Positions 3,346 through 41,494 of a stretch of DNA of 43,319 bases are shown piece by piece. The stretch's first letter is position 1; each line of letters begins with the position of its first letter. The position numbers and the translations under genes are program-made. The notes beneath the pieces are model-generated. The model ran no database searches. It was not told where the DNA came from and was given only the letters and a program-made list of their open reading frames with translations. The DNA comes from Acidithrix ferrooxidans (GTDB lineage: Bacteria > Actinomycetota > Acidimicrobiia > Acidimicrobiales > Acidimicrobiaceae), in contig NZ_JXYS01000035.1 of assembly GCF_000949295.1 (NCBI RefSeq), positions 1 to 43,319 on the forward strand. The letters are read 5' to 3'.

Positions 3346-4245
3346 ATGACAGATTGGAATGCCAAAGGATTGCCACCTGCAGCCCAGCGGCGAATTGACA
3401 ATATACGCACAACTCATCTTCGATCCTCGCTTCTGAGCGTCAACGGAGCAACAGGTGTAGAGTCAGCCGGCTTTACATTTGCTAGCGAGGTAATGGGGGC
3501 GATTGTGCTCAACACCACCGGCGCAAGGATGCCAAGTTGTGGGTTTGTAGGTAACTACTATGGCGGTGGACCGTTCGGTGGAGGAAACTTTCAAAACGCT
3601 GGAATGGGGGCGATGTTCAACACGGGCTTCAATTCGACCTACGGCAACTATTTCGATATCATCAATTCAGGTTGGAGAAAAGCCATAGAAAGGATGATTC
3701 TCGAAGCCACCGAGATTGGCGCTGACGGGATCGTTGGAGTTCGACTAATGCAAAATTCTCTCGGCGAGGGATCGTCGGAATTTATTGCTATGGGCACTGC
3801 GATCTCGTCTAAAGGGAAATTACATTTAAAATCCCCCTTTAGCACCCATCTAAATGGAGCCGACTTTGCCAAACTCGTCCACAGCGGATATATTCCTGTT
3901 GCCATTTCAGTTGAAGTTAGTGTCGAGGTCACACACGACGACTATCGCACTCAACGGCAAAACTCGGTCTTCGCACCCAACGTCGAGATCGACACCTACA
4001 CGGTCCTAGTCAAACAAGCACGGGAATCTGCCCGTCGGGCCTTGAGAAATGACGTAGCTCGAAAAGGCGCCGAAGGCGCCATAATAGACGAAATGTCACT
4101 TCGAATATTTGAAACCGAACCATACGAAAACCACAGAGATCATGTAGCTGAGGTAAGAGTCGTCGGTACCTCATTGGTGAGATTCGACACCAAAACAAAG
4201 CCAGATCGACCGATGACGTTTATCTCACTAAAAGACAAGCGGTAA
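3346..4245 (+). CDS. Duplicated YbjQ/UPF0145-like domain protein, first gene of a three-gene operon
   Basis: A 299-residue protein with two copies of a YbjQ-type fold (Pfam PF01906, annotated as putative heavy-metal-binding, function unproven). Copy 1 spans about residues 35-160 and carries GADGIVGV at 125-132. It holds a Gly/Phe/Asn-rich insertion at about 64-100 that the usual ~105-residue family members lack. Copy 2 (about 160-285) keeps the outline ('GADFAKLVHSGYIPVAI' and an ARESARRAL helix) but its signature has drifted to GAEGAIID. No signal peptide or membrane segment is seen. The ATG at 3346 follows AAGGAG at good spacing. The next gene starts 77 bases downstream on the same strand and has the same architecture, so they probably act together. 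Neither metal binding nor partners can be inferred from sequence alone. Confidence 0.8.
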   Translation: MTDWNAKGLPPAAQRRIDNIRTTHLRSSLLSVNGATGVESAGFTFASEVMGAIVLNTTGARMPSCGFVGNYYGGGPFGGGNFQNAGMGAMFNTGFNSTYGNYFDIINSGWRKAIERMILEATEIGADGIVGVRLMQNSLGEGSSEFIAMGTAISSKGKLHLKSPFSTHLNGADFAKLVHSGYIPVAISVEVSVEVTHDDYRTQRQNSVFAPNVEIDTYTVLVKQARESARRALRNDVARKGAEGAIIDEMSLRIFETEPYENHRDHVAEVRVVGTSLVRFDTKTKPDRPMTFISLKDKR

Positions 4246-4322
4246 ATCTCAATTAGCCAGCGCCTTGACGGCCAAAGATTAACAACCGCGAAAAAAGCAA
4301 ACGAAGTAGGAGCGCGAAAAAA

Positions 4323-5153
4323 TTGACTAATGACAACCAAGCAATAGACCCAAGGTCAATCGGAGTACCCGAGGACGCTATTCGCCGGCTTTCTGAGATG
4401 AAACCGGGAAAAGCCACCTCTTTATTCACATCTGACCTTTCAGTCAACGAGTTCCTATTGGTGCGTGAAGCAGGATTTCGACCCCTTGGTCTAGTCTTTG
4501 GCTCCAGCATCTACCACGTAGGACTCCAAGTCGGAAAGTGGAGCGCCAATCAAGAGTTGACCAAGCTCACCGAAGCGATGTACCACGCCCGCGAGCTGGC
4601 GATGACAAGGATGGAAGCGGAAGCCGACATACTTGGTGCCGATGGTATCGTCGGGGTACGACTGGAGGTTGAATTCAAGGAATTCGGCTCAGATATAGCA
4701 GAATTCATAGCTGTTGGAACTGCGGTAGTCGCCGATGACAAGGAGATGCACTGGCGTTCGCAAGGAAAGCCGTTCACATCTGACCTTTCAGGACAAGACT
4801 TCTGGACTCTAGTTCAAGCAGGATATGCACCCCTCGGAATGGTGATGGGCACCTGTGTCTACCATATTGCCCATCAAAGGATGTTCCAATCCATGTCGAA
4901 CTTTGGCCAGAACGTCGAAATTCCTCAATTCACTGAAGCGCTATATGACGCTCGCGAACTCGCCATGAGTCGCATGCAAGCCGAAGCCGAAACCCTCCAT
5001 GCCGAAGGTATCGTTGGAGTCCAGCTCTTGTCACTTCCACATCGGTGGGGCGGCCACACCACGGAGTTCTTTGCAATCGGAACTGCCGTTCGTCCACTTC
5101 GCGAAAACCACGTCATAGCCAAACCACAGCTCGTATTGCCACTTGGAGACTAA
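4323..5153 (+). CDS. Tandem YbjQ/UPF0145-like domain protein, second gene
   Basis: A 276-residue protein made of two similar YbjQ-type domains. Domain 1 is about residues 35-137, with GADGIVGV at 105-112. Domain 2 is about residues 150-257, with HAEGIVGV at 226-233. Both begin with FTSDLS, continue with 'AG(F/Y)-PLG(L/M)V-G---YH', and share an 'EA-Y-ARELAM-RM-AEA' helix, so an internal duplication is obvious by eye. It starts at TTG 4323 with AGGAG about 11 bases upstream; the nearby ATG at 4330 is out of frame. The stop at 5153 is one base from the start of the next gene, pointing to translational coupling. PF01906 is called putative heavy-metal-binding, but no conserved Cys/His cluster is visible here. 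Confidence 0.8.
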   Translation: MTNDNQAIDPRSIGVPEDAIRRLSEMKPGKATSLFTSDLSVNEFLLVREAGFRPLGLVFGSSIYHVGLQVGKWSANQELTKLTEAMYHARELAMTRMEAEADILGADGIVGVRLEVEFKEFGSDIAEFIAVGTAVVADDKEMHWRSQGKPFTSDLSGQDFWTLVQAGYAPLGMVMGTCVYHIAHQRMFQSMSNFGQNVEIPQFTEALYDARELAMSRMQAEAETLHAEGIVGVQLLSLPHRWGGHTTEFFAIGTAVRPLRENHVIAKPQLVLPLGD

Positions 5154-5618: not shown

Positions 5619-6392
5619 CTAGAGTATTGCAGTCCTAAACTCTTTTTCTTTTGGATGACGAGATATAAACCATTCAGTGCCAAACGCTCTAGCGAAGTCT
5701 TCGTTGCCTAAGTCGAAGACAAAGGCAACTCCACCGATCTGGCTCCTATGGCGACTTAAAGCCTCTCTCTTGAGAAAGACATACTCCGAGACGTCAACAG
5801 CCGTGTCAATAGCATCCTCGCCCATTCCAAAAGCGCTTTGGGGTTCATCGGGAACCTTCCCTGGGTTGTCAACGGAGTAATCGGCCATTAGTTCCATTAA
5901 ATAGTCGCGATTCATAGTGGCTTGGTACACCTCCGACAAACCGGAAATTTCGCAAGCTCTAAGGCCAACCCGATTCACATTTATATGATCCGGATGGCCG
6001 TAACCACCGATTTCATCATAGATGGTTACGACATCTGGCCTCTCAATCGCGATAATCTCCGCCAGAGCCTTGGCCGAAACGTCGATATCTGTCATCCAAA
6101 AAGATTTGGGATTGGAATTGCTTTGTGTTCCCATCATCCCTGAATCTCGATAGCCAAGGAAATAGACCTCGTCCACGCCTAGAACTTTCGCGGATTCCAA
6201 TAGTTCATCGCGACGCCGATCAGGTAGTTCCGATCTATCGGATACAAATCCGGCTGGATATTCGCCCTCTTCGCCACCAGTAGCTACGACTATCACTACT
6301 CGATGGCCATCTGATTTAGCTTTTGCTAAGGTTCCGCCCGTCAAAAGACATTCGTCGTCGGGATGAGCATGAAATGAAAGTAATGTCGCCAT
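5619..6392 (-). CDS. PIG-L/LmbE-family zinc deacetylase (mycothiol MshB/Mca-like)
   Basis: A 257-residue cytosolic metalloenzyme of the LmbE family, which hydrolyses N-acyl groups on glucosamine-type substrates. The diagnostic AHPDDE is at residues 9-14. With HPDH at 133-136 it supplies the zinc ligands (by homology His10, Asp13 and His136), and Asp12 is the likely general base. The context YDEIGGYGHPDHINVN resembles the actinobacterial MshB (deacetylase) and Mca (mycothiol-conjugate amidase) branches; I cannot separate them without a tree. GAGGT precedes the ATG at 6392. The gene is a single transcription unit, convergent with the YbjQ-type operon. If it is Mca, its role would be removal of electrophile-mycothiol adducts. 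Confidence 0.88.
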   Translation of the reverse strand: MATLLSFHAHPDDECLLTGGTLAKAKSDGHRVVIVVATGGEEGEYPAGFVSDRSELPDRRRDELLESAKVLGVDEVYFLGYRDSGMMGTQSNSNPKSFWMTDIDVSAKALAEIIAIERPDVVTIYDEIGGYGHPDHINVNRVGLRACEISGLSEVYQATMNRDYLMELMADYSVDNPGKVPDEPQSAFGMGEDAIDTAVDVSEYVFLKREALSRHRSQIGGVAFVFDLGNEDFARAFGTEWFISRHPKEKEFRTAIL

Positions 6393-8335: not shown

Positions 8336-9718
8336 TCAAGCGACGCTTTCGTGGCTCATTGTTGTAGTCCAAGAAAGGGGTCTCCAAATAATCGGACGAA
8401 ACCTGTCTTGGTGGCCCTCCCCGACACCCATCGTTATAAACCCTGCCATCTGCCACTTTTCGATCTCTATCGAACTCGAGCCGTCAAATACTACGGTGCG
8501 AGAGTTCATGGCGGTAATCGCAATAGGATCCAGTTGGCCAAATTCTGGCCATGCTGCGCCAAAGACAATTGCATCAACGTCAACGATAGCTTCGCTAAGG
8601 GAATCAACTCGCGATGTAATTGAAAACTCTTGAAGCGAAGTCAACTTTGCCATAGGGTCGTAACCGACGACGACACCACCCCTATTTATAAGTTCGCTGG
8701 ACAATAAGAGCGCAGGCGAATCACGACAATCATCGGTTCCGGCCTTAAATGCCATTCCCAAAAGGGCGATACGCTTTCCGGATAAACCACCAACCGCCCT
8801 GTCAATGCGATCTATCGAACGCTCCCGAGCGGCTCGGTTAGCCAAAATCGCTGCCGACACCACCCCCGAATCGCACCCGAGGGAATCTGCGATAGCGACC
8901 ATCCCAGAAGTATCCTTTGGAAGACAGGATCCACCCCAACCTATGCTTGGACTCAAAAAGGCAGTTCCTATCCGCGAATCCAAACCAACACCCCGAAGGA
9001 CGTCGCTGGCTTTGGTTCCAAGTGACTCACATAGTGCTGCAATCTCATTCGCAAATGAAACCTTGACCGCCAAAAAGGCATTGGAGGCATACTTGATCAA
9101 CTCAGCACCACGGCGGTCCATCTTGAGTAATGGCATATAGTCGGGGTAGAGCGAAGCCACCACGTCAACCGCCCATTCTTCGCCTCCTATTACGACCCGA
9201 TCCGGATTCATAAAATCGTCGATTGAGCGTCCTTCGCGTAGAAATTCGGGGTTTGAACACACAGTAGGCTCTACGCCTTCTTTGGCAGCCTCGTGGCAAA
9301 TGAGCTCCAACGCCTCACATGTTCCAGGAGGTACAGTGCTCTTGACGACTATTGGGAGGCTTGTCGTGGCCGCGCCGGCAACTTCAGCGGCTGCTGCTGC
9401 AATAATTGACAGGTTGGGGTTGCCGTTAGGAGATGGTGGAGTACCTACACATAAAAATGCTACATCGACCCCAAAGCAACCATCTGCCATGGAATCACCC
9501 AAGATGATTCTTCCATCACGCAGAGATCGCGCAAAGATCTCATCCAGCTGGGGCTCGTAGATAGGTATCTTCCCACGTGAAAGACTCTCCATTCGCTCCT
9601 CGTCCTTTTCGATGAGGTAGACCCTATGACCCAATTCCGCGAAACACCCGGCAGCAGTTAAACCTACGTATCCCCCGCCAACAACTAAAATATCCCTGAC
9701 AACAAAGCGACTTTCCAT
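8336..9718 (-). CDS. ugd: UDP-glucose 6-dehydrogenase
   Basis: A 460-residue cytosolic NAD-dependent enzyme that oxidises UDP-glucose twice to UDP-glucuronate. Motifs in order: N-terminal Rossmann loop GGGYVGLTAAG (about 14-24), VGTPPSPNG (91-99), STVPPGT (127-133), NPEFLREG (156-163), the helix KYASNAFLAVKVSFANEIA (about 209-227) and the catalytic GWGGSCLPKDTS with Cys265. The C-terminal UDP-binding domain follows (LGMAFKAGTDDCRDSP). Length is typical. GGAGAA stands about eleven bases before the ATG at 9718. A terminator-like hairpin separates it from the ABC gene upstream, so it may be transcribed independently. The product would feed the adjoining glycosyltransferase operon. A GDP-mannose dehydrogenase is the main alternative, but the family and context favour UDP-glucose. 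Confidence 0.92.
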   Translation of the reverse strand: MESRFVVRDILVVGGGYVGLTAAGCFAELGHRVYLIEKDEERMESLSRGKIPIYEPQLDEIFARSLRDGRIILGDSMADGCFGVDVAFLCVGTPPSPNGNPNLSIIAAAAAEVAGAATTSLPIVVKSTVPPGTCEALELICHEAAKEGVEPTVCSNPEFLREGRSIDDFMNPDRVVIGGEEWAVDVVASLYPDYMPLLKMDRRGAELIKYASNAFLAVKVSFANEIAALCESLGTKASDVLRGVGLDSRIGTAFLSPSIGWGGSCLPKDTSGMVAIADSLGCDSGVVSAAILANRAARERSIDRIDRAVGGLSGKRIALLGMAFKAGTDDCRDSPALLLSSELINRGGVVVGYDPMAKLTSLQEFSITSRVDSLSEAIVDVDAIVFGAAWPEFGQLDPIAITAMNSRTVVFDGSSSIEIEKWQMAGFITMGVGEGHQDRFRPIIWRPLSWTTTMSHESVA

Positions 9719-9917: not shown

Positions 9918-11690
9918 TCAACCAAATGAAAGAAATTCATCGATTTGTTGACGTGGTTGACGATCCAAAGATGACAGGAAAAAATCTTCAAAGGTGCTCT
10001 TTTGCAATCGACCGTCACGAAAGCGATAGATCTCGTCACAAAAACGCAGCGTCTTTTCCTGATGGCTGATTACTATTGCAGTTCTACCTTTAGTAACCCG
10101 CTCGAAAGCACCGCACAAAACTTCCTCTAATTGCGGATCGACACCCACAGTTGGCTCATCCAAGATGATTATCCTTGCATTCTTAGCAACAGTTCGGGCG
10201 ATTGCAATACACTGTCGCTGCCCTCCTGAGAGGGAGGTACCCTTTTCGGAGACGACTGTATCAATACCCATAGGAAGCACCTTGAAGACTTCCATAACTC
10301 CTGCCTCATAACAGGAGCGAACTGCGTCAAGGCGAATCGCCCCTTGAAGGCCATAGATGACGTTTTCCCAGATGGTACCCGAAAAGATAAAGGTCTCTTG
10401 AGGCAAGTAGGCGACTAATTCCCGTAGCTGAAATGAAGGAATCTCATCTAGAGAGCGACCCCCTATGGTGACTCGGCCCTCTTTGGGCTCCAAGAGCCGA
10501 GGGAGCATCTTTGCAATCGTCGACTTTCCCGATCCAGTTTCGCCTACAATTGCAATTCGCTTACCCTCCTCTACACGAAGGTTCAAATCCTCAAAGATCG
10601 AACGGCCGCCATGAGAGAAGGCGACACCTTCATAGCTAATAGAGCTCCCGCCGAGTGGAACTCGCCTCTTCGTGGTTACACCTGGCCTTGCATCATTGGC
10701 CAAAAGCAACTCTTCAACCCGCTCCTTGGCCGCTAAACCAACTCCAACGATTCCCGCTCTCTTGGTCAATTGTTGAAGCGGCTTGTATACCGATCGTGCA
10801 TAGGAGGTCACAACCAAGATCATGCCAAGGCTAAGGGTGCGGGAAAAGACTGCCAATCCAGCAAAGAGGACGAAACCTGCAATAGTCAGATTCAATACCG
10901 AGGTTACAGATGAATTCATCGCAGCCTGTGCAATGTTGGAATTCAAAGAATGACGCGTACTCAATTTAACGAGCGAGGAAAACCGAAAGGATTCCATCTC
11001 TGTCGCTCCGTTAGTTTGAACTACCACCAGCCCGGTAATCGCCTGCTGCGCAGCTGAATTCGCCATACCCTCGTAGTCTCGAGCCCTCCTCGACTCCCGC
11101 CGAACTCGTCGCATAAAATATGCTAGGTCAAGGACTACGAATACACCAAGTGCCAAAACCGCTACCAAAAAGACGACTCCAAGCATGGCCAAGATAATTA
11201 TGATTCCAACTATGGCCAGTATCGAATTGACCAAGGTCGGAACAGACTCCACCATCGCTCGTTGTATCGACTGCACATCGGCAATCAAACGAGTAGATAG
11301 GTCACCAGCCTTTCGCTTCTCAAAGAACGCTTGTGGCTGCTTTAGGATATGGTCATAGACCCTTACCTGGAGATTATTAGAGAATATCTGTCCTGCATTT
11401 GCAAAACTCAACGCTGAAATGTAGGTACTCACACCACCAATTAGAGCAAGTGCGCCCATTGCGCCAACGGTGATATAGAGCAGTTCTAATTTTGTTCCCG
11501 TGTAACCAAAGCTAGAAGGCAAAGGTTTAGTTCCAAAAACTGAGTCAACAACGATCTTTAGTGGCCATGGGGTTATCCAAGTGATGGCTGCATTGACGAG
11601 TGAAAAAAGCAATCCGATCGCCATTCGACCGCGACTCTGTCGAAGGAAGTCACCGACCATCCTTCCTTTTGGTCGATTTCGAGCCCTCAC
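9918..11690 (-). CDS. ABC exporter, fused permease and ATPase
   Basis: A 590-residue half-transporter of the MsbA/type IV exporter kind. Residues about 20-320 form the transmembrane domain with around six hydrophobic helices. The nucleotide-binding domain carries Walker A GETGSGKST (383-391), Q-loop LPQET (about 429), signature LSGGQ (487-491), Walker B IIILDEP (507-513) and switch His (ISHQ). It should act as a homodimer in the inner membrane, flipping or exporting a lipid-linked sugar, lipid or similar amphiphile. It starts at GTG 11690, two bases after the stop of the GT4 gene, so it belongs to that operon; an ATG eleven codons in (MVGDF) is an alternative start. Its place after two glycosyltransferases suggests that it moves their product. 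Drug export is possible but less favoured by context. Confidence 0.9.
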   Translation of the reverse strand: MRARNRPKGRMVGDFLRQSRGRMAIGLLFSLVNAAITWITPWPLKIVVDSVFGTKPLPSSFGYTGTKLELLYITVGAMGALALIGGVSTYISALSFANAGQIFSNNLQVRVYDHILKQPQAFFEKRKAGDLSTRLIADVQSIQRAMVESVPTLVNSILAIVGIIIILAMLGVVFLVAVLALGVFVVLDLAYFMRRVRRESRRARDYEGMANSAAQQAITGLVVVQTNGATEMESFRFSSLVKLSTRHSLNSNIAQAAMNSSVTSVLNLTIAGFVLFAGLAVFSRTLSLGMILVVTSYARSVYKPLQQLTKRAGIVGVGLAAKERVEELLLANDARPGVTTKRRVPLGGSSISYEGVAFSHGGRSIFEDLNLRVEEGKRIAIVGETGSGKSTIAKMLPRLLEPKEGRVTIGGRSLDEIPSFQLRELVAYLPQETFIFSGTIWENVIYGLQGAIRLDAVRSCYEAGVMEVFKVLPMGIDTVVSEKGTSLSGGQRQCIAIARTVAKNARIIILDEPTVGVDPQLEEVLCGAFERVTKGRTAIVISHQEKTLRFCDEIYRFRDGRLQKSTFEDFFLSSLDRQPRQQIDEFLSFG

Positions 11691-11692
11691 TA

Positions 11693-12916
11693 CTACACCT
11701 GCCCTATCGTATCCACTGAATCAAACTGCACATCGTCTGGGCCATCTTTCTGGGAGGCCGCCACCTCAAGAATTGAACTAACCGTCTGATTCCAAGTGAA
11801 AGAGGTCTCGACCCGATCTCGTGCCTTTTTTCCTAGTTCCATGCGTCTTGTTGGATCGTCGATCAAAGTCGCAATTGCATTGGCAATCGCCTCTGGCGAT
11901 GGGTCGCTCAAAAGAAGTGCATCGCCTCCGACGATAGCTTCAATGGATGGAGTTCTAGTGGCAATTACAGCTATCGAAGACGCCATATACTCAAGGATCT
12001 TTAGCGGGGAGAAGTAGAAGTCTCCCCGGAGCAGATATGGAGCTACGCCTATATCCATCGAAGATAAATAAGATGGGATCTCGCTCATCTCGAGCGCTCC
12101 AACAAAATGAATACGAGCCCGTGCCTTGGAACGCTCCGACAGTTGCTTTAGGGATGTCATCTCTGGTCCATCACCAACTATCAAAAGTCGATGAAAAATA
12201 CCCCTATCAAAGAGTAGATTTGAAGCTAAAATCAAATTATTAACTCCATGCCAAGTCTTCAGGGAGCCGACAAAACCTATTGTTGTTGGATCGCTTGGCC
12301 CCTTAGGGTCAGATGTCACTTTGAGCGACATACTTTGCGTATCATATCGATATTTGATAACTGATCCGAATCGCTCGGTGTCTACGCCATTGGGAAAGAC
12401 CGATATCGTCTTTGCCTCATTTGTCCTAATGTAGGCGCACAACGACTCCGACACGGCGATGACGTCTGCACCATAGATAGCAGCGGCCTCTTTGGCTCTA
12501 GCTTCATCGATAAGATCGAGGTTAAAGTGATCAATACGCTCATCCACTATCGGCGCGTTAACCTCTAACAATCTCTGGATTCCAAGTCGGATTGCAAGTT
12601 GGCGCCCCTCGCCAAAAAAGAGGCTCAGGCGCTCATAGATAAGATCTGGTTTTATCTCTCTCAAAACGTCAAACGCACGTTCTGAAAATTCATTAGCAGC
12701 CTGGAACTTGGAGCCATCTGAGGCCTTAATGTAGGGTAACTCAATATGGTGCAAGATCACACTGGGAACCCCATCGCCGACGACCCTGGTCGCAATCAAA
12801 TGAATTTCATGGCCCAAGGCGCTGGCAGCACGGCAAAATTCACTTACGTGAATCGATGCGCCCTTTGTGCCTCCGACTGGGATACCTGGGTCAAAGAGAA
12901 GATACGCTATCCTCAT
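11693..12916 (-). CDS. Glycosyltransferase family 4 (GT-B fold)
   Basis: A 407-residue retaining glycosyltransferase. The N-terminus MRIAYLLFDPGIPVGGTKGAS has the glycine-rich acceptor-side loop of GT4 enzymes. The C-terminal half shows VGSLKTWHGVNNLI, LLIVGDGPE and FYFSPLKILEYMASS-AVIATRTPSIEAIV, the family's nucleotide-sugar-binding block with the E-x7-E spacing region. Start 12916 is preferred to the ATG six codons earlier because it makes a 4-base ATGA overlap (12913-12916) with the stop of the preceding gene, the same coupling seen twice more upstream. No membrane helix is evident, so it probably works at the cytosolic face of the membrane. Donor and acceptor cannot be read from sequence; the linked ugd and epimerase suggest an available uronic-acid sugar. 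Confidence 0.9.
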   Translation of the reverse strand: MRIAYLLFDPGIPVGGTKGASIHVSEFCRAASALGHEIHLIATRVVGDGVPSVILHHIELPYIKASDGSKFQAANEFSERAFDVLREIKPDLIYERLSLFFGEGRQLAIRLGIQRLLEVNAPIVDERIDHFNLDLIDEARAKEAAAIYGADVIAVSESLCAYIRTNEAKTISVFPNGVDTERFGSVIKYRYDTQSMSLKVTSDPKGPSDPTTIGFVGSLKTWHGVNNLILASNLLFDRGIFHRLLIVGDGPEMTSLKQLSERSKARARIHFVGALEMSEIPSYLSSMDIGVAPYLLRGDFYFSPLKILEYMASSIAVIATRTPSIEAIVGGDALLLSDPSPEAIANAIATLIDDPTRRMELGKKARDRVETSFTWNQTVSSILEVAASQKDGPDDVQFDSVDTIGQV

Positions 12917-13389
12917 TTCATACCAATTTTCCACTTGTCTTGGGAGTCATTACCACCGATCGACAAGTCGCAATTGGATGACACCAAAGACCCATCGATG
13001 ACAAATTGCAGATCTTCAACTTGAGAGCTATCGATACTCAAGAGGTAATTGACCCTTTGAACCGTGCTCGCATGATTTAGGGGATCGGGCGAGCCATCAA
13101 TTGGAACTTCGCTACCACCTAAGCCTCCTACGCCTTGTCTAGTTTGGGAGGTTCCATCTATTAGATACCCCAAGATAGCGTGCTCCCTTTGTGCCTGCCA
13201 ATGGGTGGCTCCCTGATGAGCAGAAAATCCTATAGCATCAACGGCACCGCATTCCCCTTTATGGGATGTATCAGCCGGGCCAACAAGTACGTAATCTACG
13301 ATTACGGCCGAGTCGCTCTCTTCGAAAAAGCGTACTTTGGTGGAATCGATAAATCGAACTTGGTATCCATCAACGGTTGAGGCAATCAT
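12913..13389 (-). CDS. Unknown 158-residue protein embedded in the glycan operon
   Basis: I do not recognise this protein. It is acidic and rich in Asp, Ser, Gly and Val, without signal peptide or membrane helices, and looks beta-rich (VDGYQVRFIDSTKVRFFEE, AVIVDYVLVGPADT). Two central Cys are not obviously a metal site. It is probably real: its start overlaps the upstream stop by ATGA (13386-13389) and its stop overlaps the downstream start by ATGA (12913-12916). Coupling on both sides inside a glycosyltransferase operon suggests a product needed in stoichiometry with the glycan enzymes, for example a carbohydrate-binding or accessory subunit; that is inference from position. Confidence 0.75.
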   Translation of the reverse strand: MIASTVDGYQVRFIDSTKVRFFEESDSAVIVDYVLVGPADTSHKGECGAVDAIGFSAHQGATHWQAQREHAILGYLIDGTSQTRQGVGGLGGSEVPIDGSPDPLNHASTVQRVNYLLSIDSSQVEDLQFVIDGSLVSSNCDLSIGGNDSQDKWKIGMK

Positions 13390-14633
13390 GGTGTGGTCTC
13401 TGCTGAGTCACAAGCGCGATCAAAATCTACTAAATCAGGAACTACAATTTGACTTGCAAATTTTGGAATCGCAGACATATTCACGCTTATCTGACTCGAA
13501 AGAATCGGTTCAGACCAAAAATGCATTACTTCTTGGGAGATCCTCTCGATCTCCCACCTAGACAGGTCGACAACGCGCCCAAATCCTAACTTCTCAAAGA
13601 TCTTCGCCCTTATCAGCTGCTCTTGTCTGGGATATATCCTGGGCAGATAAAGAGCAGGAACCCTAGCTGCCGCCAGTTCAACGGTTGTATTATATCCAGC
13701 CATAGAAAGCGCAACCCTAGATTTCGATAGCAAAACCTCAATATTCAGCTCGAAATCAATTAAACTAATATTGGCAGCGTCGCCGATCAGTCGCCGGAGG
13801 TGAGCCAGTGCATGTACCTCCATCAGGGGGCCGGCGACTACTAAAGTTGGGACTTGGATAACCTTTCCAACCTCAATCCCAACCTCACAAACCTCCTGGG
13901 CATCGCCACCACCGCCGCCGGTTACTAAAAAATATCCCTGATCAGACGAGGCGTTGGCGAAAAATTCAGCTCGACGCACACCCGCCTCGATGAATTCAGG
14001 CTTCCCCAAATATGAGAGGTATCGCAACTTGACACTTTCAGGAATCGAATAGTTCTTCCGCAGGTCGTAAATTGCCTCTTCTCCAAAGACAAACACCGCA
14101 TGGTAATATCGAGCAATGGCATCCAATACACCATCGGTAGCCCAGCTTTGACCAAGATTAGTAGGTGAATCTATGACATCACGAAGACCAATAACTCGAT
14201 GAATCTTAGGGTGTGCCAAAACCAAAAAGTCCAGGACTCCTAGGAGTTCCTTTGACATTCCAAGTGGCGAATGGTCCACGTAAAAGATATCTGGATTGAA
14301 CCTAACCACTATATCTTTGATGATGGCTGCACGAGCACGCTTGATCAACGAAAGCGGAATCGAAACGCCATAACTCTCATACTCATCCGGACCAACTTTG
14401 ATTACCGGTGGAAGCTCTACAAGCTCAATACCCCGAGAAGTATTAAAGCTACTCGCCACCCTCGAACCAGTCATAATGATAACTCGGACGGAGCGATTTA
14501 TCCGAACTAGGGCCTCAGCAAGTGCTATATTGCGACGAAGATGACCAAGTCCATATGTATCGTGCGAATAAATTACAATACGTCTTGGCGCCATATCTGT
14601 GAGTTCATCGATCCTTGTGAAACTTTGGGTCAC
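13386..14633 (-). CDS. COG4671-type glycosyltransferase (GT-B, MurG-like)
   Basis: A ~415-residue predicted glycosyltransferase. The N-terminus RRIVIYSHDTYGLGHLRRNIALAEAL is the hallmark of the COG4671 group, which shares the MurG/GT28 GT-B fold. The C-terminal domain has VTGGGGGDAQEV, LVVAGPLMEV and SMAGYNTTVELAAARVPAL, the last being the donor-site loop that in MurG-like enzymes begins with Ser/Gly-Gly-x-Asn/Thr. The start is uncertain: GTG 14633 overlaps the epimerase stop as GTGA and has AGG upstream, ATG 14597 lies directly at the conserved MAPRR, and ATG 14678 lies inside the epimerase gene without a ribosome site. GTG 14633 is chosen because the next two junctions also use 4-base overlaps. 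Confidence 0.85.
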   Translation of the reverse strand: MTQSFTRIDELTDMAPRRIVIYSHDTYGLGHLRRNIALAEALVRINRSVRVIIMTGSRVASSFNTSRGIELVELPPVIKVGPDEYESYGVSIPLSLIKRARAAIIKDIVVRFNPDIFYVDHSPLGMSKELLGVLDFLVLAHPKIHRVIGLRDVIDSPTNLGQSWATDGVLDAIARYYHAVFVFGEEAIYDLRKNYSIPESVKLRYLSYLGKPEFIEAGVRRAEFFANASSDQGYFLVTGGGGGDAQEVCEVGIEVGKVIQVPTLVVAGPLMEVHALAHLRRLIGDAANISLIDFELNIEVLLSKSRVALSMAGYNTTVELAAARVPALYLPRIYPRQEQLIRAKIFEKLGFGRVVDLSRWEIERISQEVMHFWSEPILSSQISVNMSAIPKFASQIVVPDLVDFDRACDSAETTP

Positions 14634-15592
14634 TGTGCCACACCTGCCGCCTGAAATGTGTGGAGATCTTTTAGCCATTCATATTCATTTCTAAATCCAT
14701 TAGCAAAAGAGACCTTAGAAGAAAACCCGAGATAGTTTTTCGCTCTATCCAAATCAGCGCCGGTATGCAATACATCTCCCCGAGCAAAGTCGCCAAAGGA
14801 GACTCGCAGATCAGTACCGTGGAAACCTCGCAGCATCTCTACCACCTCCAGCAAGGTCACAGTCGAGCCACCACCGATATTTATTGCAAGTCCACTAACT
14901 TCAGCCTTGCCAGCACTCATTGTCGCATTGGCAATATCGCTCACGTAGGTAAAGTCACGACTCTGACTTCCATCGCCAAAGATCGCTATCTCCCGATCGG
15001 AAAGTGCGCTAGAGATAAATTTACGCAAACCCATATCAGGACGCTGGGAGGGTCCATATACCGTGAAATATCTCAACGCAACCGTCTCGACCAGAGGGCT
15101 AGTTGCCTCTAAAACCACTCTTTCGGCGGCAAGCTTTGTCTTACCATATGGCGAGATGGGCGAAGGCTCATAAGACTCCAGGAATGGAGTCGGTGAATTT
15201 CCATAGATGCTAGATGAAGAGGCATACACCAAGCGTATCTTGCGATTCTGGTCGGCAATAGCTCCAACTAACTTTGTCGTAGCCAGGATATTGTCATGAA
15301 CATAGCTTGGGTATTGCTCAAAACTAGATCGTACGCCCGCCCGACCCGCAAGATGAAAGACCGTATCGACACCATCGAGCAGGACATCAAGATCGGCATC
15401 GACCAAATCAGCTTTTTGGAATTCAAAACCCTCCAGCTCAGACAAAGTGAGCATTCTCTCGTATTTCTCACCCGAATCATAAGAATCGGAAAAACAGTCA
15501 ACACCTACAACTTCTATTCCATCTCTAACTAGCATCGCGGATAGGTGAGATCCGATAAATCCTGCTGCCCCAGTCACTAAAACTCTGTGCAT
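14630..15592 (-). CDS. NAD-dependent sugar-nucleotide epimerase/dehydratase
   Basis: A ~320-residue extended short-chain dehydrogenase acting on a nucleotide sugar in the cytosol. Shown by TGAAGFIGSHLS at the N-terminus (NAD loop GxxGxxG), the catalytic triad around SSSSIYGNS and YGKTK (Tyr-x3-Lys), and ALRYFTVYGPSQRPDMGLRKFI, which contacts the sugar nucleotide. The pattern fits UDP-glucuronate or UDP-glucose 4-epimerases. With ugd nearby, UDP-glucuronate to UDP-galacturonate is the favoured reaction, but this is not proven by motifs. ATG 15592 is chosen over an upstream start at 15673 because AGGAAGG lies seven bases before it and the NAD loop follows immediately. First gene of the glycan operon. 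Confidence 0.88.
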   Translation of the reverse strand: MHRVLVTGAAGFIGSHLSAMLVRDGIEVVGVDCFSDSYDSGEKYERMLTLSELEGFEFQKADLVDADLDVLLDGVDTVFHLAGRAGVRSSFEQYPSYVHDNILATTKLVGAIADQNRKIRLVYASSSSIYGNSPTPFLESYEPSPISPYGKTKLAAERVVLEATSPLVETVALRYFTVYGPSQRPDMGLRKFISSALSDREIAIFGDGSQSRDFTYVSDIANATMSAGKAEVSGLAINIGGGSTVTLLEVVEMLRGFHGTDLRVSFGDFARGDVLHTGADLDRAKNYLGFSSKVSFANGFRNEYEWLKDLHTFQAAGVAQ

Positions 15593-15798
15593 AATCAACC
15601 TTCCTATTGACCGAGCCACAGGAAAGATGATCGCGAAAGGAGCTAAGGTGCAGGTGAAGAAGTAATTAGACATCCCTTATTCAAGTCATCAAGCAAATCT
15701 AAGAAGAACCTAATAGATTCATGAACTAGATACTGAAAAATTAATACTAAACCTGGATCCACCGAAAATTTAGCCGATCAACTTTGATTTTGGCATAG

Positions 15799-15869: not shown

Positions 15870-16948
15870 AGATGCGAGCATCTGCTAGTGCTTGATAGTC
15901 ACCTTTGACGATTCGAACGCAGTTTCCAACAGTGGGTTAATACTCCCTATCACCCTTGCTGAGAGACTTGGCCTTAGGGATCTCTTTGATTTACACATTG
16001 ACCTAGAGGATCGTCCTGGACGAGCAAATGTTGGCAGAAAAGCTATGGCTATCATTGCATCTATCTTGGCCGGTGGTGATTGCGTTAATGACACTGCAAT
16101 CCTTGAAAGCCCAAATGCGCAAGTGATTCTTGGTCAGATAATGCCAGCACCATCCACTCTTGGTGTCTTCTTGCGTAGTTTTGAGACCAGTGACATCGCA
16201 GATGTTGAACGAGTTGCAGCTTTGTTGCTAAAACGAGCCTGGCTAGCTGGAGCAGGTCCAGGTGATGAGCCGCTCACCATTGATGTTGATTCCACAATAT
16301 GTCAGGTATATGGAAACAAAAAAGAAGGAGCTTACTTTGGTTATACCAAAGTAAGGGGGTATCACCCACACCTAGCAGCAGTTGGTAAAACAGGTGACAT
16401 TCTTGGAATAGTGACACGTGAAGGCAATGCCAATACCGCTCGTGGTGCCGGGGAGTTTGTAACTCAGGTAATCAACAATGCCAGAGCCGCTGGAGCAACT
16501 GGTGAAATAACCATGCGTTTTGACTCTGGGTTCTTCTCAAGAGCCGTTAGAGACGCAGCTAGTGCGGGTGATGTTCGCATTTGCATTACAACACGGATGT
16601 CAAAACGATTGAAGCAGGTTATTGCAGCCATACCAGAAGAAACATGGACTTCAATTCCCTATTGGCTTGAAGGTGGAGCTGATGTAGCAGAAGTCAAATA
16701 TCGCGCATTTGCAAGAGATAGACAAGACGTTCGTCTTATCGTACGAAGGGTCAAGCCTACTCCAGGGTCTCAGCTGGCACTATTTAGTGACTATGACTAT
16801 CACGCATTTATTATCGATCGACAAGGCGAAACGCTTTTCCTTGAGGCTGATCACCGCCGTCATGCCCAGATCGAACTAGTCATCAAGGATCTCAAAGGAG
16901 GTTCTAGGTGGAATCATGTTCCATCCCGATACATGAACGCTAATGCCG

Positions 16949-17002
16949 TCTGGTTAGCTCTGGTCTGGTTAGCTCTGGTCTGGTTAGCTCTGGTCTGGTT
17001 AG
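16949..17002 (+). repeat. 15-bp tandem repeat in the transposase gene (3.6 copies)
   Basis: The unit TCTGGTTAGCTCTGG occurs at 16949, 16964 and 16979, then nine bases more to 17002, all identical. The unit is five codons, so the frame is kept and the protein gains repeats of WLALV. Unmodified IS1380 transposases have one such stretch here (NAVWLAL), so it is a recent expansion. Confidence 0.93.
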
Positions 17003-17016
17003 TTATTTGTGTAACT

Positions 17017-17105
17017 ACACAACCTGGCACGGTGCAACTGCACACAACCTGGCACGGTGCAACTGCACACAACCTGGCACGGTGCAACTGCACACAACCT
17101 GGCAC
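17017..17105 (+). repeat. 25-bp tandem repeat in the transposase gene (3.6 copies)
   Basis: Identical 25-base units start at 17017, 17042 and 17067, followed by the first 14 bases of a fourth (17092-17105). The unit starts ACACAACCTGGCACGG and ends TGCAACTGC. Since 25 is not a multiple of three, each unit changes frame; the native frame (HNLA) is met in the third copy only. The array begins inside a 16-base inverted repeat, TTGTGTA-AC-TACACAA (17007-17022), which lies between the two arrays. Confidence 0.93.
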
Positions 17106-17552
17106 AAATAGGTGCTATTGCAGAAACTGTAATAACCACACCAAAGCTTCGACGGTGTTACTTTCAGATCGCAGGACATATCACTCGTTCAGCTAGAAAA
17201 GTGAAACTCCATCTTGAAGAACACTGGCACTATAAGGATAAGTTCTTAGAGGCTCTTGATCGGATCAGAAAGTTTGAGATCGCCATCACCTGAACATCTG
17301 GTTACCTAACACACTGAATATTACTTGAAGGAACTGCTCTAGAAGACAAGGGATTAGGTCACTATACCCAAAATGAGATTTCACAATCTCAAAAATGACC
17401 AAACAGGCTCAACCACAAAGCGAATAGGTCTTATTTGGCTCTCTGAAACCAGATTTAAGCCATAGACCCTCCGTCAAACCTAAATCAGTTCCGAAAAACC
17501 GACTTGGATTCACACCGAGGGGCTCGAGCTGGTCCAATTCTGTGGATTCAGG

Positions 17553-21716: not shown

Positions 21717-22586
21717 ATGCAGATGGTCAATGAAAAACTCGCAAAATTACGTACCGTAGCAGCTGGATACCTCTCGACGTTGGAAGACGGAGAGGGAAAA
21801 TCCATGCTCGCATACACTTTGAACCTTGGACCGACTTGGAAGCAGATAATCGAATCACTTCCGCTTGGACCGAGCACGCGCGTACTCGATGTCGGTTGCG
21901 GCTACGGTCTACTGGCCATCGAGATCGCGATTCGAACTGGCGCTTCAATACTTGCATCAGATGTCAATCCAAAATTTGTAGCCGGTGCGAAAACCATCAT
22001 TGAGCGCTCAATGGAACAAGGTATCTTGTCTAATGATATCTCTATCGAATTTCAAGTTGATGACATAATGCAACTCGACGTTCCAGAGGGAGAATTTGAC
22101 GTAGTTGTAGTCCGTGAGGTCTTTAGCTACGTCTCAGATCCAGACAAGGCCGTTGGAAACCTCTTAGGGGCACTCAAGCCCGGTGGAGTGCTCTTAGTCG
22201 AAGATATAGATGACCATCTCTATATGACCTACCCAAGCCCATCTGATGCCTTCAGCCGTCTATTTGAGGCCATCCAAAAACTTCAAGGGCAACGAGGCGG
22301 GGATCGCGAAGTTGGTAGAAAGTTGTCGGTTTATTTATCGAGAGGTGGATTTGTGATCGACAGCGTAAAGCTGATGACCGAAGCGTTGCACGTTCATTCA
22401 GATCCCCAAAAAGGCGAGAAGCGCTTTATAGTCGACCAGATCGCAACACTGAAGGATCAACTCGTGGACTCGGGCCTCCTAGAGAGCGCGAGCTTCGACG
22501 AGCTTCTAGCCTCTGTAGCTCAAGAGGCTCCCCAAGAAGAATTCAGGATGAACGGTCGAGTCGTCGTACAAGCTCACCGCCCCTAA
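21717..22586 (+). CDS. Class I SAM-dependent methyltransferase
   Basis: A 289-residue cytosolic protein. Motif I VLDVGCGYGLLA begins at residue 56, ASDVNP supplies the acidic end of strand 2, EFQVDDIMQLD is the region of motif II, and LKPGGVLLVED is motif III/post-III, so SAM binding is well supported. The N-terminal ~50 residues (LAKLRTVAAGYLSTLEDGEG) and the C-terminal helical tail are not assignable to a substrate class; small-molecule or ubiquinone/menaquinone-type methylation are possibilities. AGGGA lies 12 bases before ATG 21717; a second in-frame ATG is at 21726. It is followed by a large hairpin, so it is likely monocistronic. Confidence 0.88.
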   Translation: MQMVNEKLAKLRTVAAGYLSTLEDGEGKSMLAYTLNLGPTWKQIIESLPLGPSTRVLDVGCGYGLLAIEIAIRTGASILASDVNPKFVAGAKTIIERSMEQGILSNDISIEFQVDDIMQLDVPEGEFDVVVVREVFSYVSDPDKAVGNLLGALKPGGVLLVEDIDDHLYMTYPSPSDAFSRLFEAIQKLQGQRGGDREVGRKLSVYLSRGGFVIDSVKLMTEALHVHSDPQKGEKRFIVDQIATLKDQLVDSGLLESASFDELLASVAQEAPQEEFRMNGRVVVQAHRP

Positions 22587-22943: not shown

Positions 22944-25900
22944 ATGCTCAAAAAAATACTCGTAGCAAACCGTGGTGAGATTGCGATTCGTGCCTTTCGT
23001 GCCGCCTCTGAGCTTCGCATTTCAACAGTTGGCATCTATGCATACGAAGATCGGTATTCCCTCCATCGTCAAAAGTCAGACGAAAGCTACCAAATTGGCG
23101 AACCGGGTCACCCTCTTCGATCCTATCTAAATGTCGATTCGATAATCGAAATCGCCCTAAAGTCACAGGCTGATGGAATATATCCGGGATATGGCTTTCT
23201 CTCGGAAAACCCCTTACTCTCGGAGGCCTGTGTGAAGGCAGGGATCAAGTTCATAGGACCATCAACCGGCGCTCTCGAACTGGCTGGAAACAAGATGAAC
23301 GCAGTGGCTGCAGCTCGTCGAGCCGGCATTCCGACCCTCAAGTCTCTAGGACCCGTCACGGCCTTGGACGACCTTTCGGAGATAATCTCAACTTTTCACT
23401 TTCCACTTTTCGTAAAAGCCTCAGCCGGCGGAGGTGGCCGCGGTCTTCGAAAGGTGGACTCCCCCGATCAGCTAAGCAACGCGATTACCAGCGCAAGCAC
23501 CGAAGCGCAACTTGCATTCGGTGACCCGACAATCTTTATTGAAGAGGCGGTCATTGCGCCACGCCACATTGAGGTGCAGATTCTTGCTGATGAATACGGC
23601 GAGGTGGTTCATCTCTTCGAAAGGGACTGTTCGATACAACGCCGCCATCAAAAGGTAGTTGAGATCGCACCCGCTCCAAATCTATCGCCCGACATCAGAG
23701 AGAAGATCTGCAATGACGCGGTGAAATTCGCAGCCTCAATTGGATATTCGAATGCCGGAACGGTGGAATTCCTGCTCGACTCGAAGAACCGTCATGTCTT
23801 CATTGAGATGAATCCTCGAATTCAAGTTGAACACACAGTCACCGAAGAGGTAACCGGGGTTGACATCGTCCAAGCGCAGATCAAAATCGCATCCGGACAA
23901 AGCTTAACTGACTTAGAAATTCGACAGGAAGGAATCACAACGAGGGGCAGCGCGCTCCAATGTCGCATAACCACCGAAGATCCATCTGATAACTTTAGAC
24001 CAGATACCGGTAGAATCTCGGCATATCGTGCTCCAGGTGGCGCTGGCATTCGCCTTGATGAAAGCACCTATTCCGGAGCACAAGTCCTTCCCTACTTTGA
24101 TTCGATGCTAGTCAAGCTCACCACCCGGGGCCACGACTATCGAGAGGCGATTCAACGTGCCGACCGAGCGTTGCGAGAGTTTCGAATACGCGGCGTGGCG
24201 ACAAACATCGGCTTTCTCCAGGAGTTGCTAAAGGAGGAAGACTTCCGTCATGGTCAAATTAATACCTCTTACATAGAAAGTCACCCTGAACTCCTTAAGG
24301 CTAAGTCAGTCGCCGACCGCGGAACTAAACTCCTTACCTACATCTCTGACATCTCGGTAAATCGCCCCAATGGCTCAGCTCCGACAAACAGCATCCCAAA
24401 CTCTAAATTACCTAAAATCGACTTGGCCTTGACTCCATCAAAAGGAAGTAAAAACCTTCTCAGCGAAGTTGGGCCGGCTGAGTTCGCGAGGCTGCTAAGA
24501 GAGCAAGATGCGGTTGCCATAACAGATACAACGCTGCGAGATGCGCACCAAAGTCTCCTTGCAACTAGGTTGCGCACCAAGGACATGGTGGCAGTCGCGC
24601 CTTACATTCAAAGGCTCCTCCCCGGGTTACTGAGTATCGAGGCTTGGGGCGGGGCAACCTACGACGTTGCTCTTAGATTTTTAAAAGAAGATCCTTGGTC
24701 ACGTCTAGAACAGTTGCGTGAGGAGATCCCAAACATTGCAATTCAAATGCTTCTTCGGGGCCAAAGCACCGTTGCATACACCCCCCAACCTGAGCCAGTG
24801 GCAAAATCATTTGTAAAGGCGGCGGTCAAAAGCGGTGTCGACATCTTTCGAGTCTTCGACGCCCTGAATAACGTCCAAATCATGCGACCTGAGATAGACG
24901 CGGTCTTAGAAAATAACGCCGTTGCAGAGGGAACCCTTTGCTATACAAGCGACATGACAAATCCAAAAGAGGCGCTTTACACAGTAGATTATTATCTAAG
25001 AATCGCCGAGCAACTTGTCTCTATGGGTTGCCACATTCTATGTATAAAGGATATGGCCGGCCTAGCCAAAGCACCGGCGGCGGCCAAATTGGTAAAAGCG
25101 CTTCGATCGAACTTCGATCTACCCGTACACTTTCATACCCACGATACAGCAGGAGGTCAACTCGCAACCTACCTAGCTGCAATCGAAGCCGGAGTAGATG
25201 CTGTCGATGGAGCAACGGCATCACTTGGAGGAACTACCTCCCAGCCACCTCTGTCTGCAATAATTGCCGCTTTAGAAAATACCCCCTACGATAGCGGCAT
25301 TGACCTGAGCTCGGCACTTTCTCTTGAGCCATACTTTGACGCGGTAAGAAAGCTCTATCGTCCATTCGAATCTGGCCTTAGCGCCCCCACAGGACGTGTC
25401 TACCATCACGAGATTCCAGGGGGTCAGCTCTCAAACCTTCGCCAGCAAGCAATTGCACTGGGCCTTGGTGATCATTTTGAGCGAATCGAGGATATGTACG
25501 CAGCAGTAAACAAGATCCTCGGAAATATTGTAAAAGTTACACCCTCTTCAAAGGTCGTTGGCGATCTAGCACTCGGCTTAGTAGCTGCAGATGCTGACCC
25601 GACTGACTTTGAAGAAAACCCTTCGTCATATGATATTCCAGACAGTGTGATAGGTTTTCTCCAAGGTGAGTTAGGCGTACCCGCTAGTGGATGGCCAGAG
25701 CCCTTTCGTACCAAAGCACTAACTAATCGCACCTCAAAATATCTAGGGCCCAAAGTGCTAGACCAAGAGAGCCTAGATGCCCTTGAAGCTCCAAATCCCA
25801 GAGCTACTTTGAGCCGTCTTTTGTTTCCTGGACCCGCAAAGGAGTACGAAGAGTCGCTTGATAAATATGGTTCGCTATCGGTATTGGATACCAAGACCTT

Positions 25901-26327
25901 CTTTTACGGTCTGGAGATCGGGGAAGAGACATCTGTCAAACTCGACCAAGGAGTAGACCTCTACTTGGCTCTCGACGCCATCGGCGGAGCTGATGAAAGA
26001 GGGATTAGAGACGTCTATTGTCGCCTCAACGGACAGCTTCGAGTAATTCCAATTCGCGACAACTCTATCAAGTCCACTGCACCGAAAAACGAAAGGGCTG
26101 ACTCTTCTAATCCCGGTCATATCTCAGCCCCATTTTCTGGAGTTGTCACCATAGCTGTAGCTCTAAACGACACCTTGAATGCAGGTCAAACAATCGCCAC
26201 TATCGAAGCAATGAAGATGGAAGCTGCCATTACCACCTCAGTGAGTGGTCGCGTGAAACGAATAGTGGCCTCGGGTCCCACAAAGATTGAGGCAGGCGAT
26301 CTCCTCATAGAAGTTGAGATATCATGA
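22944..26327 (+). CDS. pyc: Pyruvate carboxylase
   Basis: A 1127-residue full-length single-chain enzyme that makes oxaloacetate from pyruvate, bicarbonate and ATP, refilling the TCA cycle. The biotin carboxylase domain (about 1-455) has the ATP loop FVKASAGGGGRGLRKV and EMNPRIQVEHTVTEEVTG. The carboxyltransferase domain (about 520-800) has ITDTTLRDAHQSLLATR, EAWGGATYDVALRF, FRVFDALN, CIKDMAG and HFHTHDTAGGQ, the metal- and pyruvate-binding blocks. A PYC/OADA linker follows. The C-terminal biotinyl domain has EAMKMEA with the biotinylated Lys at residue 1091. The ATG at 22944 has AAGGTAGG upstream. Single-gene unit; all hallmark residues appear intact. Biotin protein ligase must be encoded elsewhere. 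Confidence 0.97.
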   Translation: MLKKILVANRGEIAIRAFRAASELRISTVGIYAYEDRYSLHRQKSDESYQIGEPGHPLRSYLNVDSIIEIALKSQADGIYPGYGFLSENPLLSEACVKAGIKFIGPSTGALELAGNKMNAVAAARRAGIPTLKSLGPVTALDDLSEIISTFHFPLFVKASAGGGGRGLRKVDSPDQLSNAITSASTEAQLAFGDPTIFIEEAVIAPRHIEVQILADEYGEVVHLFERDCSIQRRHQKVVEIAPAPNLSPDIREKICNDAVKFAASIGYSNAGTVEFLLDSKNRHVFIEMNPRIQVEHTVTEEVTGVDIVQAQIKIASGQSLTDLEIRQEGITTRGSALQCRITTEDPSDNFRPDTGRISAYRAPGGAGIRLDESTYSGAQVLPYFDSMLVKLTTRGHDYREAIQRADRALREFRIRGVATNIGFLQELLKEEDFRHGQINTSYIESHPELLKAKSVADRGTKLLTYISDISVNRPNGSAPTNSIPNSKLPKIDLALTPSKGSKNLLSEVGPAEFARLLREQDAVAITDTTLRDAHQSLLATRLRTKDMVAVAPYIQRLLPGLLSIEAWGGATYDVALRFLKEDPWSRLEQLREEIPNIAIQMLLRGQSTVAYTPQPEPVAKSFVKAAVKSGVDIFRVFDALNNVQIMRPEIDAVLENNAVAEGTLCYTSDMTNPKEALYTVDYYLRIAEQLVSMGCHILCIKDMAGLAKAPAAAKLVKALRSNFDLPVHFHTHDTAGGQLATYLAAIEAGVDAVDGATASLGGTTSQPPLSAIIAALENTPYDSGIDLSSALSLEPYFDAVRKLYRPFESGLSAPTGRVYHHEIPGGQLSNLRQQAIALGLGDHFERIEDMYAAVNKILGNIVKVTPSSKVVGDLALGLVAADADPTDFEENPSSYDIPDSVIGFLQGELGVPASGWPEPFRTKALTNRTSKYLGPKVLDQESLDALEAPNPRATLSRLLFPGPAKEYEESLDKYGSLSVLDTKTFFYGLEIGEETSVKLDQGVDLYLALDAIGGADERGIRDVYCRLNGQLRVIPIRDNSIKSTAPKNERADSSNPGHISAPFSGVVTIAVALNDTLNAGQTIATIEAMKMEAAITTSVSGRVKRIVASGPTKIEAGDLLIEVEIS

Positions 26328-41259: not shown

Positions 41260-41494
41260 TTGCGCCATGCCTCCTGCATTCTGTCGCTCGGAACATTAAA
41301 TCCCCTAAAGCATTTGCTTTATACGTCAACTTTCGTCACAAAATCCGCAAAGCTTAACACTTCTAGTGATTATCAAGAAGATAATATGCATAAAAATTCA
41401 TGCATTTCACAATTCGACAACAAATACAGAGGGCATAGCCACCTAAGGTGGGCTACAAATCGTCGGATAAAACGGCTAGAATTATCCATGTAAA

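Follow-up and report, generated by a model that had tools for sequence, protein, structure and literature searches.

The locus and its genes

The window, i.e., the whole stretch of DNA analysed here (43,319 nucleotides, contig NZ_JXYS01000035.1), belongs to the iron-oxidising acidophile Acidithrix ferrooxidans, most likely to Py-F3, a strain from a metal-rich stream at pH 2.5 whose genome has been described as 4.02 Mb in 183 contigs with 47.8% G+C (PMC4417699); the genome used here comprises 4,019,867 bases in 183 contigs. On the minus strand of the window, genes for an epimerase, a glycosyltransferase (GT28), a small orphan protein, a second glycosyltransferase (GT4b), an MsbA-like ABC exporter and a nucleotide-sugar dehydrogenase follow one another in this order. 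These genes, the overlaps on either side of the orphan and the genes used as synteny anchors are located as follows:

5619-6392, minus strand: PIG-L family protein, anchor on the opposite side of the operon (matched in part in loci L019 and L020, where the fetched stretch ends)
8336-9718, minus strand: UDP-glucose/nucleotide-sugar dehydrogenase
9918-11690, minus strand: MsbA-like ABC exporter
11693-12916, minus strand: GT4b, a group-4 glycosyltransferase, start ATG at 12916
12913-12916, minus strand: ATGA, overlap of the orphan stop and the GT4b start
12913-13389, minus strand: orphan gene, 158 aa, in the slot that GT4a holds in relatives, with genome-like coding statistics and no credible homologue
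13386-13389, minus strand: ATGA, overlap of the GT28 stop and the orphan start
13386-14633, minus strand: GT28-type glycosyltransferase (the COG4671 glycosyltransferase of a preliminary description of this DNA), start GTG at 14633
14630-15592, minus strand: NAD-dependent sugar epimerase/dehydratase, start set from relatives (the longest frame begins at 15673)
21717-22586, plus strand: methyltransferase-domain protein, anchor (35-38% identity in loci L018-L020)
22944-26327, plus strand: pyruvate-carboxylase-type protein, anchor (74% identity in loci L018-L020)

The orphan frame runs open over 158 codons of the minus strand, from 13389 to 12913, and shares a 4-base stop/start overlap with each of its neighbours; the epimerase/GT28 junction is a 4-base overlap as well (GTGA at 14630-14633). 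The preliminary description had given all three junctions (GTGA and the two ATGA) with exactly these coordinates.

Between the operon and the anchors, the window carries a transposase and two transporters. The transposase, of the DDE_Tnp_1_4 type, occupies 15892-17196, and its frame continues through two tandem arrays (16948-17002 and 17017-17105). Two other repetitive regions were noted in the window, i.e., a 126-base tandem repeat with 3.5 copies (39335-39774) within a 721-aa frame (39103-41268), which encodes repeated units resembling a 23-residue sequence, and two adjoining frames of 299 and 276 aa (3346-5153), which look like duplicates and, judged by eye, consist of two similar halves each.

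Coding character and relatives of the orphan

The coding character of the orphan frame was assessed from its openness and its composition. The frame remains open in only 1 of 5000 dinucleotide shuffles. The coding signal was split into a part contributed by amino-acid choice and a part contributed by synonymous choice, using as the reference 34 long frames from the window and from contig C88 of the same genome, each left out in turn. The amino-acid part was 0.060 for the orphan, as compared to 0.063 +/- 0.028 for real windows (n = 177) and -0.070 +/- 0.031 for random frames (n = 1000); the synonymous part was 0.028, as compared to 0.022 +/- 0.018 and -0.026 +/- 0.019 for the same two sets, respectively. 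The summed score was matched by none of the 1000 random frames and by none of 1000 shuffles of the orphan, and 92 of the 177 real-gene windows score no higher than the orphan. By both openness and coding statistics the frame thus behaves as a real coding sequence and, as its codon and amino-acid usage is that of real genes and unlike that of random frames, the orphan is very probably a resident, translated gene. The codon-aligned antisense frame (window 12916-13389, plus strand) also has a high coding score (0.107 vs. -0.055 +/- 0.042), despite five stops, and the five alternative frames of the orphan DNA gave no Pfam match.

The predicted product has a pI of 4.6 and a mass of 16.9 kDa and is mildly hydrophilic. 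It has no hydrophobic stretch (best 19-residue mean 0.85) and no membrane-like segment, in agreement with the earlier remark that it lacks an export signal, and it is probably soluble and cytosolic. The structure prediction that had been proposed as a check was run on the single sequence and was uninformative, with a mean pLDDT of 34 and no predicted fold.

The orphan was also said to have no recognisable family, and our searches bear this out. Pfam, PHROGs and PADLOC yielded nothing at E <= 10, nor did NCBIfam at E <= 1, and the one match in the PDB (E 3.4, a repeat protein) was not credible. At E <= 0.001, searches of 397 genomes of the order and 396 genomes of the phylum, sets which overlap one another and others used here, found the orphan in its own genome only. 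No credible homologue was found among plasmids and phages at E <= 1, or in scans of genome_contigs and of viral contigs, both of which find close relatives only. At E <= 0.01, two further matches (G040 and G041) were obtained from 60 relatives, where approx. 0.6 would be expected by chance, and four (G1021, G292, G868 and G783) from 395 genomes of the class, where approx. 4 would be expected by chance. The best of these weak matches (G1021, 2.1e-4) lies antisense to a ligase-like gene, and the G040 match likewise lies antisense to a longer or annotated-looking frame, which itself has no Pfam match. Inspected by eye, the alignments of all six weak matches show no common family; the proteins encoded opposite three of them (two candidate frames for one) gave no signal above shuffles against the six frames of the orphan DNA.

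A 25-base direct repeat (84% identical) connects the orphan (13181-13205) with the 5' part of GT4b (12857-12881) and scores above all 200 shuffles. As 7 of 40 same-size segments (the orphan's included) reach its score, we regard it as a curiosity only. A GT4b relic was rejected, the GT4b profile being not significant (best score -3.3 bits; 324 of 491 shuffles were as good).

The slot in relatives and the present location of GT4a

Counting the organism's own genome, GT28 is present in 13 of 60 genomes, and the 12 other GT28 neighbourhoods were fetched for comparison. A full GT4a lies directly 3' of GT28 in 11 of these 12 loci; in the exception (L028) the arrangement differs and the ABC gene follows GT28. 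The slot GT4 in syntenic relatives has about 410-460 aa, and the order in congeners, as far as the contigs extend, is epimerase, GT28, GT4a, GT4b, ABC exporter and dehydrogenase. In three loci (L018, L019 and L020) counterparts of the methyltransferase and pyruvate carboxylase genes (35-38% and 74% identity, respectively) lie beside the operon, and in L019 and L020 a PIG-L counterpart is partly visible on the far side, where the fetched stretch ends. As these flanking anchors are common to L018-L020, the locus in the window is orthologous to theirs, i.e., its neighbours are orthologous and it occupies the same chromosomal place. No homologue of the orphan was seen in any of the loci fetched. 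The preliminary description had proposed looking for homologues between a GT28 and a GT4/ABC pair, and had itself named their absence from syntenic loci as the outcome that would tell against its proposal.

A GT28 alignment scan of genome_contigs confirmed 447 relatives, and we analysed the best 80, which share several contigs with the 12 fetched loci and which, by record title, include Actinomycetes, Acidimicrobiaceae, Chloroflexi, Acidobacteria, Proteobacteria and sulfate reducers (e.g., Desulforhopalus). In 76 of these best 80 loci the start of a GT4a-type gene lies no more than 600 bases from where GT28 ends (tblastn, E <= 1e-4), so that in both sets, which are not independent, a gene other than the orphan holds the slot. 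The spacing between GT28 and the GT4a-type gene in the 76 loci is consistent with a 4-base overlap in 63, with a 1-base overlap in 6 and with another arrangement in 7; for one of the four loci in which no GT4a-type gene was found near GT28, the contig stops within 600 bases. Under a stricter labelling of whole frames, GT4a was the next labelled gene in 63 of the best 80 loci, the other 17 having no labelled gene downstream (8), no GT28 frame (5), an ABC gene first (3) or a GT4b-like gene first (1). Among the 44 of the best 80 loci with a placeable GT4b N-terminus, GT4a and GT4b overlap by 4 bases in 25, overlap by 1 base in 5 and show another spacing in 14; 28 of the best 80 loci have no GT4b start within 600 bases, and GT4b is thus less constant than GT4a. 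As overlaps of this kind occur where GT4a occupies the slot, the chain of overlaps goes with the operon and its slot; it is not special to the orphan and does not testify to an old partnership of the orphan with its neighbours.

The genome of the window contains a single strong GT4a homologue, at C88:23814-25052 (51% identity over 413 residues), the next-best match having 34% identity over 191 residues. The C88 protein, used as the query, retrieved a single copy from each of 10 genomes out of 21 at E <= 1e-50. The tree places the C88 protein within the GT4a group (support 90/98), without settling its position there. Its gene lies between nth (HhH-GPD family) and a gene for an AMP-binding acyl-CoA ligase. 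In five congeners (L138, L139, L140, L142 and L143) nth and the ligase gene adjoin without GT4a, about 100-190 bases apart by their matches; at the other loci, the contig ends, the ligase was not seen or hisD is next. Both ends of the proposed move are thus documented: the operon slot lacks GT4a, and GT4a lies at a place where congeners do not have it.

A search at E <= 0.001 found no other copy in the genome of the 1.1 kb that lie upstream of GT4a at its new site. This stretch includes a perfect 14-base tandem repeat with 4.9 copies (TGGCCCAGTTGAAA; L042:9327-9394, on contig C88); a genome-wide search with a 26-base pattern, allowing up to 3 mismatches, found this repeat at no other place. 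A comparison of the slot with the C88 site for a reciprocal exchange found no DNA similarity beyond chance. The genome has 32 places that match the DDE_Tnp_1_4-type transposase family (13 of them with internal stops, many partial), and a rearrangement is therefore unsurprising; no mobile element was tied to the GT4a move.

Proposed displacement of GT4a, alternative explanations and known systems

We consider it likely, with a probability of roughly 0.6 for the reading as a whole, that the orphan is a lineage-specific gene which, unrelated to GT4a, displaced it in place within a conserved glycan-export operon, and that GT4a moved out of the operon to its present solitary position between nth and the ligase gene. 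The orphan may have come from an unsampled lineage or element or may have been born in place. The nearest sampled relatives are distant (the five closest have 57-61% identity in GT28), so that GT4a may have left either before or after the orphan arrived. With regard to expression, ribosomes that finish GT28 would reinitiate at the ATGA and translate the orphan, and ribosomes that end the orphan would reinitiate at GT4b, so that the orphan would have inherited from GT4a the role of a link carrying translation on to GT4b and the genes after it. For overlaps of this kind, termination-reinitiation has been demonstrated in E. coli and Haloferax (PMC6728339, PMC10666635), and the orphan is probably translated in this way. 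In the window, the predicted anti-Shine-Dalgarno (anti-SD) pairing in front of GT4b amounts to -4.0 kcal/mol, as compared to -6.9 to -10.2 in 7 of 8 relatives (the eighth, L024, has -3.5), and the value before the orphan, -2.9, lies within the range of -2.4 to -9.5 of the 7 relatives compared. Given that all but one of the 8 relatives have a stronger SD in front of GT4b, these data suggest that GT4b may now rely on ribosomes coming from the orphan. The coupling reading draws on the overlaps and on this one weak SD, a feature which L024 also shows.

A different account of the slot would be that the orphan is what remains of GT4a itself, shrunken, frameshifted or diverged past recognition. Slot and junctions are indeed identical, and weak tblastn alignments against a database of 500 bases (with E of 0.05 or more) point in the same direction. 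Against the six frames of the orphan DNA, however, a GT4a profile (with rows from ten of the 11 GT4a-bearing loci) scored at best -3.5 bits, which 195 of 296 shuffles reach, so that neither the orphan nor another frame shows GT4 membership by profile match; an in-frame profile test, the rows of which include one GT4b-type L025 frame, agrees (570 of 692 shuffles as good). Moreover, a gene in decay would be unlikely to retain 158 open codons with the usage typical of the genome, and we regard a GT4a remnant as very improbable. We think just as little of the chance that the frame is fortuitous or an assembly error, as might be suspected for a gene without homologues in a draft genome of 183 contigs: the frame stays open in hardly any shuffle and has the coding statistics of real genes, the 43-kb contig that encloses the orphan stems from a hybrid 454/Illumina assembly with 18.4x and 203x coverage (PMC4417699), and the location of GT4a elsewhere accounts for the changed slot without any error.

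Other explanations concern what the orphan does in the operon. The preliminary description held that the orphan is made with the two glycosyltransferases and may serve a glycan or glycolipid assembly and export system as an accessory subunit. The former part stands insofar as the orphan is a real gene in the operon and is probably co-translated with its neighbours; the overlaps, on the other hand, do not speak for an old partnership, since they are found where GT4a holds the slot. That the orphan serves as an accessory subunit of a glycan assembly and export machine, binding one or both glycosyltransferases, would accord with its position, with the overlaps at both its ends and with its genome-like coding statistics, and short overlaps are enriched for subunits of complexes, the figures for E. 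coli being 30.4% of close pairs as compared to 6.8% of distant pairs (PMC10666635). By the same figures, however, most close pairs (69.6%) form no complexes, and any partnership of the orphan with the transferases is thus only a guess. The system is, in addition, widespread without the orphan: a GT4a-type gene lies within 600 bases of GT28 in nearly all of the best 80 loci of the same operon type, with the overlaps present there too, and the fetched loci of relatives show no orphan homologue, so that the orphan is not conserved beside the genes of the system. An accessory role is therefore unlikely in our view. It is also quite unlikely that the orphan is a mere translation conduit, in which the open frame leading to GT4b is conserved and the product is not; the weak SD before GT4b, the retention of both ATGA junctions and the lack of a homologue would fit such a role, but the amino-acid and synonymous choices are those of resident genes, which is more than openness alone needs. 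A further, speculative variant that we rate equally low is that a protein of a new family replaced GT4a as a non-enzymatic partner beside GT28 and GT4b, while the relocated GT4a catalyses under its own control, so that the glycan could be switched via one solitary gene.

If GT4a was displaced in place, as we favour, then a gene found with GT28 at almost every locus examined has nevertheless left the operon, and an unrelated gene took its junctions. The locus would thus represent a clean example of a conserved operon in which one slot has passed to a gene without known relatives, and it warns that overlap chains are no proof of an old functional partnership. The orphan also offers a concrete small protein in which a role of the product can be tested against a role as a conduit. 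Literature searches, made by terms other than the gene name of the locus, found no description of this displacement.

In-situ gene displacement within mosaic operons is known as the exact replacement of a resident gene in its slot, with neighbours and overlaps retained. By our reading, the locus described here is alike in that the slot gene was replaced while neighbours and overlaps are unchanged; it is unlike in that the newcomer, rather than being a homologue from another lineage, is not homologous to the displaced gene (no source for it was found), and in that the displaced GT4a persists elsewhere in the genome. Like ORFan genes, the orphan is small and without a credible homologue in anything searched, but unlike them it lies inside a conserved operon and has genome-typical codon use. 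With the GT4a of the same operon in relatives it shares the slot and the kind of junctions, but it has no sequence similarity to GT4a in any frame and differs from it in size (158 aa as compared to about 410-460 aa). Finally, the orphan resembles translationally coupled overlapping genes (PMC6728339, PMC10666635) in having an ATGA overlap on each side, and departs from them in that the SD before GT4b is weak and coupling is here read from the sequence.
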